From NCBI GenBank assembly GCA_015492495.1, contig WGEY01000021.1:1-41630 (forward strand): 41,630 nucleotides of DNA, written 5' to 3'. The notes beneath the pieces were generated by a model. The model saw nothing but the letters and a program-made list of their open reading frames with translations. It was not told where the DNA came from and did not search any database. The DNA is from Deltaproteobacteria bacterium. GTDB taxonomy: Bacteria; Desulfobacterota; GWC2-55-46; DRQE01. This document shows positions 304-41,630 of the stretch, one piece after another. Numbering within the stretch: position 1 is the stretch's first letter; every line of letters starts with the position of its first letter. The translations under genes were made by a program, and so were the position numbers.

Positions 304-353
304 GTTTAACGACCCGCGCGGGGCGGGCTCGGGAGGCGCCCGTAACAAGGACC

Positions 354-385
354 AATTTGCTTGACAAAGTTGCAAAAATTTGCTT
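354..385 (+). repeat. 9-bp direct repeats around promoter P2
   Basis: AATTTGCTT occurs at 354-362 and again at 377-385. The copies are 23 bases apart start to start, about two helical turns. The first runs into the -35 hexamer and the second into the -10 hexamer of P2. They could be operator half-sites for a regulator of the rTCA genes, or chance in an AT-rich promoter. Confidence 0.35.
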
Positions 386-389
386 AACT
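361..389 (+). promoter_or_regulatory. promoter P2, downstream of the riboswitch terminator
   Basis: TTGACA (361-366) is followed after 17 bases by TTAACT (384-389), with an extended -10 TG at 381-382. The transcript would start near 396 and bypass the riboswitch. Its short leader contains a hairpin, GAGCAGG (402-408) with CCTGCTC (418-424), upstream of the AGGAGGT ribosome binding site of icd. Confidence 0.6.
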
Positions 390-456
390 TCCTTGTCCCT
401 GGAGCAGGCACCCCAGTCCTGCTCAAAAAAAACGTAACCATGTGAACAGGAGGTAA

Positions 457-2685
<2,229 letters not shown>

Positions 2686-37223: not shown

Positions 37224-38714
37224 TTACTTGCCGGTTAATATATTTATACCCTTCCGTATACTTTTACGCAGCCCCAACTCTTGTATCCTCCAGATGGTAT
37301 TGGGAGAGAAGGCCCGTTTTACTCTGTTCCTCGTATTTTTTTGATCAACGAGCTTCTCGACCTTTCCGACAAGTTTACGGAATCTCTCTGGCGGTATATT
37401 CAAACAAAAACAGTTGAGCGGACTTTGATGGTTGTACAAAGAAACATCAAAATCATCACCTATCAAACCATTCTTCTTGCAAAACTCAAATGCCTCCGTA
37501 CCAGGATAAGGTGTGAATATGCTATAAAGTAAAACATCGCAGTCGATCCTTTTTATGGCATCCATTGTAGCTTTCAAAGTTTCTTCTGTCTCCTGAGGAA
37601 ACCCCACCATAAAAAAGGCTTGCAGTTCGATTCCGTACCGTTTGATGGTATCGCACGCAGCGAGCGCCTCCTCTATTGTGGTATCCTTTTTCATCTCCCT
37701 CAATATCTCATTGCTGCCCGACTCTATACCGATTTGGATAGAGTAACAACCAGCCTCCTTCATGTGGGATATGGTCCTATCATCAACCAACTTCACATGA
37801 ATCTCACAGCTCCACTTCAGCCCCGGACACTCTGCAATCAAAATATCGCACAGTTTGTGTATATAACTCCTGTTTATGCCAAAGGTATCATCGTCGAAAT
37901 GAACCGACTTCAACCCTAACTTTTGCAGGCCCTGTATCTCTCTCACAACATTTTCAGGGGAACGAAACCTTGCGCGCCTACTCCATATGTTACGTGATCC
38001 GCAATAAAAGCAGTTGAACGGACATCCTCTTATCGCAAAGATATTTTTAAAGGCAGTCAGTGGATACCGGTCATAATCTTTCAGAACCTCTGCCACGCCT
38101 TCGTGAGGGAATGGTAGAGAGTCCAGATCATCGATGAATTTTCTTTGAGGGTTCTGCACATGCCGTGAGTCTTCTCTGTATATAATACCGTTAACATTAC
38201 CAAAAAATTTTTTATGTTCTATCGCATTTAACAATTCAACAATAGTGACCTCTCCTTCCCCTCTTACACACACATCAATGTCAGGAGACTCCAACACAGT
38301 CTGCCCTGCCATCGTAGGATGTGGCCCGCCGACGACAACGACTATATCCTTGTTTATTTGCTTAGCTATCTTGGCAACCACTCTGGCCGATGCAAAATTC
38401 TGTGATTTGGAGGTTATCCCTACGACTGTGGGACCGTATTCAGATATAGCCATCCTAACCTCTCTCCAGACATTCCCTGACAGGTCTTTGAGATTATTCA
38501 AATAATTTTTGAATCCTTCCCCTGCCAAATAACTGAATTTACCCACCTCACTCACGGGGCAAAAGTCTGCGTTGTAAACTCGTACATCCCAGTCAGTTTG
38601 CTTCCGTATGGACGACGCCAAGTAAGCCAGTGACAGCGGATACCTGTCTAGGGAATACGTTTCCTTGTGCAGCCTGTAAAAAGGAGGCTCAATAAGAAGG
38701 ATTCTATTTTTCAT
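37224..38714 (-). CDS. B12-binding radical SAM enzyme
   Basis: A 496-residue protein of the cobalamin-dependent radical SAM class. An N-terminal B12-binding domain covers about 1-180, with VVVVGGPHPTMAGQTVLE and VCVRGEGE. The radical SAM core follows, with Cys231, Cys235 and Cys238 in RGCPFNCFYCGS, then HFDDDTFGINR and IQIGIESGSNEILREMKK. Relatives include BchE-like cyclases and C- or P-methylases. In a glycan locus it could methylate a sugar carbon. The ATG at 38714 is chosen because MKNRILLIEPPFYRLH is the family start; the frame opens farther upstream but overlaps the neighbouring gene more heavily. It overlaps that gene by 11 bases. Confidence 0.87.
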   Translation of the reverse strand: MKNRILLIEPPFYRLHKETYSLDRYPLSLAYLASSIRKQTDWDVRVYNADFCPVSEVGKFSYLAGEGFKNYLNNLKDLSGNVWREVRMAISEYGPTVVGITSKSQNFASARVVAKIAKQINKDIVVVVGGPHPTMAGQTVLESPDIDVCVRGEGEVTIVELLNAIEHKKFFGNVNGIIYREDSRHVQNPQRKFIDDLDSLPFPHEGVAEVLKDYDRYPLTAFKNIFAIRGCPFNCFYCGSRNIWSRRARFRSPENVVREIQGLQKLGLKSVHFDDDTFGINRSYIHKLCDILIAECPGLKWSCEIHVKLVDDRTISHMKEAGCYSIQIGIESGSNEILREMKKDTTIEEALAACDTIKRYGIELQAFFMVGFPQETEETLKATMDAIKRIDCDVLLYSIFTPYPGTEAFEFCKKNGLIGDDFDVSLYNHQSPLNCFCLNIPPERFRKLVGKVEKLVDQKNTRNRVKRAFSPNTIWRIQELGLRKSIRKGINILTGK

Positions 38715-39633
38715 GTGAGTTGCATCCCCTTTTTTTATAAGACAAATAGTTCTTGTGGAAGCGAAGATAGAGTTCCTGCCCGAGGAAAGACAACAAAAAC
38801 TGAGCCCATGCAACATAGTTTGACGGGTTGGCCTTTATGGCCTGAGCGATATAGCCCCTGCCGGTCTCAGCCTTTCCAACCCTCACAAACTTTCCTCCGA
38901 TTTTTTGCAGATAAAAACTCTTAAGCCTCTTGTCTTCCTCGAAGATATCGCGATACCTCGCCATGGTATCAATCTCGAGTCTGGCCGTATCGAGCAACTT
39001 GTCGCCGAGTCTTGGCCCCTCGTGAGAGCGAATCCTTACAACAGGATCAAGCGTAAAATCCACACGGTATTTATCGGCAATCCTTAGATACAATTCCCAA
39101 TCCTCTCCTGACACCACTTTTTCGTCATAGCCCCCCAATTCCATAACAACGGATCTGCGTATCATGGGATTCGAGGCAGAACCAGTGAAATCATCCTGGT
39201 AGATCAAACCCTTCAGGACCTTTCCCCGCAATGTGGGTCGGCGTACACCGAGTTCATTACCTTCCGAATCTATCTTTATAAAAGCGCCGTAAACCAGTGC
39301 TATATCCTCAGCAGCCCTTTCGAAGAAATTCACTTGAACCTCTATCTTGTGAGGCAGCCACTCATCGTCATCATCGAGAAAGGCAATGTACTCGCCCCTT
39401 GCCTCCCTCACCCCGAGGTTCCTTGCCTGTGATATGTTCATCGGCTCATGCCTTATGTGCCTTATCCTCTTATCTCCAAAGCCCTTGATGACCTCTTCGG
39501 TATCATCGGTCGAGCTGTTGTCGAGTATTATGAGCTCAAAGTCCCTGAAGGTCTGTGCGAGCACACTCTCAATAGCCTTTTTCAAGAAGGCGGAACGGTT
39601 GAATGTTGTTATCAATGCAGTCACAAGCGGCAT
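38704..39633 (-). CDS. family 2 glycosyltransferase
   Basis: A 309-residue GT-A glycosyltransferase: MPLVTALITTFNRSAFLKKA, LDNSSTDDT, ISQARNLGVREARG, FLDDDDEWLP as the metal site and SGEDWELYLRIAD as the catalytic region. The C-terminal 80 residues are helical (GRGYIAQAIKANPSNY resembles a TPR-like tail). The ATG at 39633 has GAGGAG upstream; an ATG at 39648 overlapping the epimerase stop (ATGA) is the alternative. It is placed between the epimerase and the radical SAM gene and overlaps the latter. Composition is closer to the GC-rich flank than that of the next genes. Confidence 0.88.
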   Translation of the reverse strand: MPLVTALITTFNRSAFLKKAIESVLAQTFRDFELIILDNSSTDDTEEVIKGFGDKRIRHIRHEPMNISQARNLGVREARGEYIAFLDDDDEWLPHKIEVQVNFFERAAEDIALVYGAFIKIDSEGNELGVRRPTLRGKVLKGLIYQDDFTGSASNPMIRRSVVMELGGYDEKVVSGEDWELYLRIADKYRVDFTLDPVVRIRSHEGPRLGDKLLDTARLEIDTMARYRDIFEEDKRLKSFYLQKIGGKFVRVGKAETGRGYIAQAIKANPSNYVAWAQFLLSFLGQELYLRFHKNYLSYKKRGCNSHEK

Positions 39634-39644
39634 GATTCGGCTCC

Positions 39645-40586
39645 TCATATCCTGAAGTCCTTTGACCTTGCGAAGTCTATTGTTTCCTTAAGCCCTTCGT
39701 CAAGCGAATACCGCGGCTCCCAGCCGAGTTCCTTCCTTATCTTCGTATTGTCGAGGCAGTAACGTACCTGCTCGCCGGCCCTGTCCGGGTAATATATGGG
39801 GGCCGGTTCCTTTCCCAGTATTCCGGCTATCTTCCGGTAAAGGTCGTTAAGCGTGGTCTCGATTCCGGTACCTATGTTGAAGACCGGGTCCGGATGGTCG
39901 TCGGCCACGTCCAGGGCCATGAGATTGGCCCTTACGACATCTCTTATGAAGACGTAATCCCTTGTCTTGGTGCCGTCGCCCCACATCTCAGCCTGCTTCC
40001 CGGCGGCGAGCTTTCTTATGTAGTCGGCCATCGCGCCGGTTACCTGGCGTGGACCGTATACGGCGGCATAGCGTAATATGACATGTGGTACCCCGAACGC
40101 CTTCTTGAAAAACCTCAGGTAGTTCTCTGCCGTGGACTTGGAGACGGTATAAGCGGATACGTAATCAAAAGGCTCGGTCTCCTTCACCGGCAGGTTGGGG
40201 TTATTGCCGTACACGAAACCGGATGATGAGTATACTATCTTTTTCACCTCTTGATCCCTCGCCTTCTTGAGTATCCGCAGAAGCCCTGTAAGACAGTCCA
40301 TGTCGAGAAGCGGGTCATCCACGGACTTGGGAACAAAGACGTAAAAGGCGAAGTTGTAGATGACTTCAGGTCTTTCGTCATCAATGATCCGCTCTACCTC
40401 GGGATCGGCTATATTCGTTTCATAAAACCTGGCCTTCGGATTGATGTTTTCCCTCTGGCCGCTCGAAAGGTCGTCAACCACCGCCACGTCGGCCCCCTTC
40501 TCAATCAGTGCGTCCACGGTATGCGAGCCTATGAACCCGGCCCCTCCTGCGACCAGAACCTTGCGTCCTTTCAAGTCGTATGCCAT
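39645..40586 (-). CDS. NAD-dependent nucleotide-sugar epimerase (GalE-like SDR)
   Basis: A 313-residue extended SDR. NAD binding is by VAGGAGFIGSHTVD. The active site has YSSSGFVYG and SAYTVSKSTAE (Tyr-x3-Lys). The conserved LRYAAVYGPRQ, RDYVFIRDVVRANL and ELGWEPRYSLDEGL complete the family. It resembles UDP-glucose 4-epimerases and UDP-glucuronate/N-acetylglucosamine epimerases; the exact substrate is unresolved. An AAAGGAGC ribosome binding site precedes the ATG. It lies directly downstream of the broken flippase gene and starts the run of glycan genes. It shares the typical SDR start with the other epimerase at 28150 but lacks that protein's Cys-rich insertion. Confidence 0.9.
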   Translation of the reverse strand: MAYDLKGRKVLVAGGAGFIGSHTVDALIEKGADVAVVDDLSSGQRENINPKARFYETNIADPEVERIIDDERPEVIYNFAFYVFVPKSVDDPLLDMDCLTGLLRILKKARDQEVKKIVYSSSGFVYGNNPNLPVKETEPFDYVSAYTVSKSTAENYLRFFKKAFGVPHVILRYAAVYGPRQVTGAMADYIRKLAAGKQAEMWGDGTKTRDYVFIRDVVRANLMALDVADDHPDPVFNIGTGIETTLNDLYRKIAGILGKEPAPIYYPDRAGEQVRYCLDNTKIRKELGWEPRYSLDEGLKETIDFARSKDFRI

Positions 40587-40599
40587 CGTAAAGCTCCTT

Positions 40600-40818
40600 T
40601 TAGATTTTTTCGGTGCTGAAATAAGGAAGACTGCCCAGCAATTTATTAAAAAATATCAAAAAAAGACCATACATTACAAAACCACCTAACAGGGAAAGCA
40701 AAAGGTTCAATCCAAGTGTACTATCCAGTATAGACAACCCTCCGAACATCAGCATGCCCGCTCCTCCGGCAGAGGCAACGGAAAGGATGAACTCCGCCCC
40801 CAACGGCCTAATGACCAC
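40600..40818 (-). pseudogene. 3' part of a polysaccharide flippase gene, cut off by a REP-like element
   Basis: A 72-codon frame beginning GTG-V-I-R-P-L-G-A-E-F and carrying two strongly hydrophobic helices (FILSVASAGGAGMLMF and LLLSLLGGFVMYGLFLIFF). It matches the last two membrane helices expected of a Wzx-type flippase. It lies in the same reading frame as the 5' part (40852-41630); only the repeat element with in-frame stops separates them. Whether it is translated on its own is doubtful: the GTG falls inside the hairpin arm and no ribosome binding site is visible. Confidence 0.7.
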
Positions 40819-40935
40819 CCTGGGCTAAAGCCCAGGGTATCCTGAAAACTATTAAGGCGATATGGCCTCCGCTACGCCAGCTAAAGCTGGCTTCGCTCCG
40901 GGCGGCCATTCCTCCCCGAGCTTAAAAGCTCGGGG
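40817..40935 (+). repeat. REP-like triple-hairpin element inside the flippase gene
   Basis: Three palindromes in about 120 bases: ACCCTGGGCT/AGCCCAGGGT (40817-40838), GCCAGCT/AGCTGGC (40876-40891) enclosed by ATGGCC/GGCCAT (40862-40909), and CCCCGAGCTT/AAGCTCGGGG (40914-40935). Each has a short AA-containing loop. The structure resembles REP/BIME or the palindromic ends of IS200/IS605-type elements; no transposase is present. It introduces stop codons into the flippase frame, so it probably arrived after the gene was intact. Confidence 0.85.
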
Positions 40936-41630
40936 TTTCCTGGCCGATTTGATGAATGTGTATTTGGTTGTCCACGCAATGTACAAGCAGAGAATCGTAA
41001 TATGTGAACACACGGTAGCAAGTGCCGCTCCGTTTATACCAAATCGAGGGATCAGGAGCAAGTTCAGTATCACGTTCATGGCCGCCCCGCATGCCATCGC
41101 GTAAAATATCCTCTTCTGCTGATTGAATATAAGCAGGATATGATGATACAGATTATGTATATAAACAAGGGTTGCCATGAAAATCAATATCTTCAAGACC
41201 GTGACAGACGGGAGGAAATCCTCGGAATACAGAAGAGCTATGATCTTGTCCGCCTTTGCAAGCACGAGAAAAAACAACAATACTGAAAAAAACACCGTCC
41301 CCTTCATCCAGAAGGTCCAGTACCTCACAAACCTCTCGTTAGACTCCTTCAAAACCCCTATAAGCGCCGGAAAGAGAGCCGACGAGACGAGGGCCATGGG
41401 GAAGAGGACCAGCCTGTTCAGTTTCAGCGCAGCGTTATACCACCCGGTCTCGGTTATCATCCCCCAATAACCGAGCAACACGGAATCCGTATACATGGTG
41501 AGGTCCCCGACCCCCTTGGCGAGGGCCAGGTACCAGCCTATGGCGAGAAACACCTTCCACACGGGCCAGTTGAAGGAGGGGCGTATAGAGAGGCCGGAAC
41601 CTTCCATCAAAACGAAGAAACCGAAGATAA
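40852..41630 (-). CDS. polysaccharide flippase (Wzx-type MATE/MVF family), interrupted and partial
   Basis: Moves undecaprenyl-linked glycan units across the inner membrane. The frame is open to the window edge on its 5' side (residues I-F-G-F-F-V-L precede the first in-window ATG at 41607), so the N-terminal half lies outside. Visible are several membrane helices and the family blocks TETGWYNAALKLNRLVLFP, VSSALFPAL, LYSEDFLPSVTVLKIL and MNVILNLLLIPRFGINGAALATV. After FIKSARKP the frame runs into a REP-like element, which adds about 22 foreign residues and then a TAA at 40854-40852. The last two helices follow as a separate fragment (40600-40818). The protein is probably impaired, although flippases can tolerate some C-terminal loss. 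Confidence 0.82.
   Translation of the reverse strand, partial: IFGFFVLMEGSGLSIRPSFNWPVWKVFLAIGWYLALAKGVGDLTMYTDSVLLGYWGMITETGWYNAALKLNRLVLFPMALVSSALFPALIGVLKESNERFVRYWTFWMKGTVFFSVLLFFLVLAKADKIIALLYSEDFLPSVTVLKILIFMATLVYIHNLYHHILLIFNQQKRIFYAMACGAAMNVILNLLLIPRFGINGAALATVCSHITILCLYIAWTTKYTFIKSARKPRAFKLGEEWPPGAKPALAGVAEAISP

Follow-up and report, generated by a model that had tools for sequence, protein, structure and literature searches.

Interruption of a flippase gene

The window analysed here is the whole stretch of 41,630 nt of contig WGEY01000021.1 (positions 1 to 41,630, forward strand). Near its end, a 141-bp element (40815-40955) interrupts a minus-strand Wzx/polysaccharide-flippase gene and leaves on either side of it two fragments, A and B, that share one reading frame. 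Fragment A (40956-41628, minus strand) was identified as a Wzx/Polysacc_synt_3 flippase by its match to Pfam PF13440 (26.5 bits, above the cut-off of 23), and homologues of it were present in 20 of 38 relatives. Fragment B (40600-40814, minus strand) comprises the final ~71 codons and the stop of the gene, and is open in the same frame as fragment A. The neighbours in the cluster encode glycosyltransferases, methyltransferases, a radical-SAM protein and a sugar epimerase. Two predicted genes in the window (37224-38816 and 38704-39648) overlap by 113 bases; the true start of the radical SAM gene (37224-38816) is probably a later ATG.

Both fragments were placed on a profile of 27 flippase homologues of 413-527 aa, taken from relatives and with the genome's own paralogue included. 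Fragment A occupied profile positions 212-419 and fragment B positions 428-470, of 487. Because these positions are consecutive, we regard A and B as consecutive parts of one flippase, in agreement with an earlier note on this DNA that had assigned them to a single gene. Taken alone, fragment B gave a weak match to the profile (8.8 bits), and its assignment to the same flippase is based on its position, frame and order. The match to PF13440 and the consecutive profile matches place the host gene among the Wzx-type polysaccharide flippases. The contig ends at 41630, within the gene, so that the N-terminal half is missing from this sequence, and a search with the genome's own paralogue as the query found no contig carrying the absent half.

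Read from fragment A, the insert adds a foreign tail of ~33 codons that ends in TAA (40852-40955, minus strand). In-frame stops occur at 40852-40854 (TAA), at the adjacent 40849-40851 (TAG) and at 40825-40827. The earlier note had described a flippase split, in one frame, by about 120 bases with three palindromes, the first part ending in a foreign tail and stop. The split, the shared frame, the palindromes and the tail were all found, although the insert is 141 bp long. Its suggestion that read-through might restore the protein is implausible, as three in-frame stops, of which two are adjacent, would have to be passed. When the flanks were joined on paper without the 141 bp, an open flippase frame resulted in the window. 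The empty site at the flippase is reconstructed from the frame, the homologues and the other two copies of the element.

Architecture of the 141-bp element

The element (40815-40955, plus strand) is bordered on the left by the pentanucleotide AATGA (40810-40814, plus strand), its target, which is not duplicated, and its right end reads GATGA. All three palindromes are given on the plus strand. The left-end (LE) palindrome, CCCTGGGC-TAAA-GCCCAGGG, spans 40818-40837. The middle palindrome, GCCAGC-TAAA-GCTGGC (40876-40891), belongs to the right-end region, and the right-end (RE) hairpin (40904-40945) consists of an outer stem, GGCCA/TGGCC, and an inner stem, CCCCGAGCT-TAAA-AGCTCGGGG. The insert region folded better than shuffled sequences (z -4.3 and -5.0), and none of 200 shuffles matched it. 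Subterminal palindromes at both ends, in the absence of terminal inverted repeats, give the element the form of a PATE/MITE. An Rfam search with the element returned chance-level matches only.

Copies in the genome and their insertion sites

The whole genome holds exactly three copies of the element. They are 100% identical over a stretch of 147 bp that takes in AATGA and GATGAA, and their flanks are unrelated to one another. Three copies at this identity exclude chance for the element; weaker matches on two further contigs, C61 and C43 (E 0.28), were set aside as chance. All three copies follow AATGA directly, and in all three the target A comes next after the right end. The inserted length is 141 bp, the target is fixed, and no copy shows a target duplication.

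The second copy (contig C95, 13969-14115; loci L002/L008) lies exactly at a gene junction, with the stop codon of a rhodanese-like gene on one side and the start ATG of a maf-like gene on the other. When its flanks are joined, the final codon and stop TAA of the rhodanese-like gene directly meet the maf-like ATG (TAAATGAAA). In the occupied site, the element's own right end rebuilds this ATG and opens an upstream in-frame extension. The third copy (contig C15, 12824-12970; L003/L025) lies downstream of a phosphoglycerate-mutase-like gene, and no clear gene occupies that stretch. The element boundaries are supported by the agreement of two independent loci, the flippase gene and the C95 site.

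The preserved flippase frame had been taken in the earlier note as a sign of a recent event. The frame, however, is kept because the insert is 141 = 3 x 47 bases long, and it carries no information on age. The insertion is nonetheless probably recent, for which the three identical copies are a better sign.

Related elements and tnpA-bearing parents

Similar short elements occur in 9 of the 38 relatives, about 71-82% identical over their full length and in up to ten copies per genome. They follow a common plan, in which TGA is followed by an ACYACC-hairpin on the left and GGCGGCCATTCATCCC-hairpin-TTTCTGGCCG forms the right. One relative (G038) carries, at locus L043, these ends on either side of a gene for a 132-aa TnpA, which is read towards the left end. 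With the NCBIfam IS200/IS605 transposase model NF033573 (cut-off 55) this protein reached 146 bits, as against 31 bits with the REP-associated model NF047646 (cut-off 80), and it matched the solved ISHp608 transposase (1.2e-21).

When the GTDB genome collection was scanned, 37 loci were recovered, from records whose titles name Deltaproteobacteria, Nitrospirae/Nitrospiraceae, Bacillota, Planctomycetota, Omnitrophota, Acidobacteriota and Syntrophaceae. Among them, L091 and L097 are further tnpA-bearing IS200-type elements, of ~570 bp. Between the right end of L091 and the window element, 76 of 82 positions are identical, middle palindrome included; the left hairpin region of L097 is identical to that of the window element at 23 of 24, and AATGA precedes that element also. 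In both parents, the region of the middle palindrome adjoins the tnpA start, upstream of the gene. By the L091 and L097 matches, the three palindromes are a left-end hairpin and a pair of right-end hairpins, all from an IS200-type element whose middle has been lost. The 141-bp element therefore has its ends in common with three tnpA-bearing elements, L043, L091 and L097. An IS200/IS605 source, which the earlier note had proposed looking for together with a genome copy count, was thus found as tnpA-bearing relatives with nearly the same ends, alongside the count of three.

Conservation of the hairpins was apparent across 14 family members for each end. In the left stem, 96% of cells were paired and 15 cells were changed on both sides; the corresponding values for the right stems were 96% and 16. 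For left and right stems alike, 0 of 500 shuffles reached the observed pairing or covariation scores. Both terminal hairpins keep their pairing through compensatory changes across the family.

Two further observations were made among the scanned loci. At L097 (Syntrophaceae UBA6078; about 310-950, reverse strand), the element appears inserted, after AATGA, in a related tnpA copy. The Bacillota genome LSA3.bin48 contains at least nine near-identical right ends (L087, L088, L096, L098, L105-L107, L110 and L117); all are within ~300 bases of where a contig or locus ends, which suggests that the element breaks that assembly.

Candidate transposases

The genome encodes two intact IS200-type TnpA proteins (L006 on contig C68 and L007 on C9), 89% identical to each other and 30% identical to the parent-type TnpA. 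Their elements have a layout like that of the 141-bp element, with TGA followed by ACC on the left, a TATTCATC-hairpin on the right and tnpA read towards the left end, but the hairpins are different (AGGA-loop) and of a different subgroup. These copies were rejected as the direct source, since the terminal hairpins differ despite the shared layout. At L007, AAAAATACTAAAGGGATA is found on both flanks.

A parent-type tnpA was not found in this assembly. The element would have been moved either by a parent that is unassembled or lost, or by one of the genome's own enzymes tolerating the element's hairpins. A search with PF07282 found no tnpB in this genome and only two matches above the cut-off in the 38 relatives. 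The parent elements carry tnpA only, which sets them apart from IS605/IS1341-type elements with TnpB. An origin from TnpB/omega-RNA, prompted by the conserved GGCCATTCATCCC-hairpin right end, was rejected, as the genome has no TnpB and the parents are tnpA-only.

Discussion

With its boundaries, its three identical copies, its fixed and unduplicated target and its tnpA-bearing relatives established, we read the 141-bp sequence as a non-autonomous, ends-only IS200/IS605 element that was inserted in trans, 3' of AATGA in the flippase gene, by a Y1 (HUH) single-strand transposase (probability about 0.94). The internal part of an IS200-type parent would have been lost by deletion. A Y1 (HUH) transposase, supplied in trans, would then have placed the remaining 141 bp immediately 3' of AATGA, with single-strand movement presumably following the IS608 mechanism.

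PATEs lack inverted termini, have near-terminal palindromes and cause no target duplication, and they derive in part from IS605-type elements by core deletion (PMC3119063); they are often moved by a trans-acting transposase (PMC7290912). Like the 141-bp element, the PATEs of Haloquadratum (PMC3119063) and Halanaerobium (PMC7290912) are ends-only IS200/IS605 derivatives with subterminal palindromes. The 141-bp element shares with them the absence of inverted termini and of target duplication and a length too short for a transposase, and some PATE types are also nearly identical between copies. It differs from the described PATEs in its sequence family, its tnpA-only (IS200-type) parents and its AATGA target; one of the described sets belongs to a haloarchaeon, the other to a Halanaerobium, where tnpB remnants occur. 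IS608 inserts 3' of TTAC, with the left-flank TTAC kept and guide sequences lying 5' of the hairpins (PMC5934647). The element resembles IS608 and ISDra2 in its insertion 3' of a fixed short target that is kept at the left, in its hairpins at both ends, and in a right end that resembles the target (AATGA and GATGA here). It differs from them in carrying neither tnpA nor tnpB and in its target, AATGA as against TTAC (IS608) and TTGAT (ISDra2).

The earlier note had called the element REP-like. REP/BIME-type palindromic repeats, which a REP-associated tyrosine transposase (RAYT) spreads, would share its palindromes, its short size and a related transposase superfamily (REP_Tyr_transpos was listed, below the cut-off). 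In REP elements, however, the palindrome is preceded by a tetranucleotide, in most cases GTAG, and copies are very numerous, although REP elements too are short palindromes tied through TnpA-REP to the same transposase superfamily (PMC8266576). Here no GTAG stands 5' of any palindrome; the only one adjoining a palindrome lies 3' of the middle one, on the minus strand. The genome has just three copies, identical over their full length and with fixed ends, and the LE hairpin differs from the RE hairpin, which is the arrangement of an IS. There are also tnpA-bearing elements that share both ends, and the parent-type transposase and those of the genome itself all score above the IS200 cut-off but below the REP-associated one (28-31 bits vs 80). 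The REP-like label was thus dropped, and the REP/BIME reading is very improbable. We give still less credence to a repeat-induced mis-join that placed the element in the flippase gene. The assembly is a draft of 112 contigs, and short repeats are prone to mis-joining, but a mis-join would bring different genes together, whereas here a single gene continues, in the same frame, from one flank to the other. The joined flanks at C95 are also exact neighbours.

The ends-only insertion would inactivate the flippase, as the last part of its membrane domain is replaced by ~33 foreign residues and stops. Continued function of the truncated protein, alone or with fragment B translated separately, seems improbable. 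Over half of the visible protein remains, and fragment B is free of in-frame stops, with a candidate TTG start close to where it begins; it nevertheless lacks an evident start or ribosome-binding site, and a very recent insertion would account for its open frame without selection. Moreover, the genome has one other full-length flippase of this kind (contig C33, 495 aa), and so loss of the interrupted gene need not abolish export generally.

Disruption of the flippase is of an ordinary kind, involves no new system, and its mechanism is clear in outline. It changes neither the understanding of transposition nor that of polysaccharide export. The locus serves as an example of the recent disruption of a surface-polysaccharide gene by a transposase-free IS200/IS605 derivative, and it ties short ends-only elements to tnpA-bearing parents in a little-studied bacterial lineage. 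A wider reading, which we find rather doubtful, is that the elements form an uncatalogued ends-only IS200 family across several phyla, as the titles of the records (Deltaproteobacteria, Nitrospirae, Bacillota, Planctomycetota, Omnitrophota and Acidobacteriota) might suggest. Some insertions of such a family would be tolerated because the right end, through AATGA/GATGA, can rebuild a start codon, as it does for the maf-like gene on C95.
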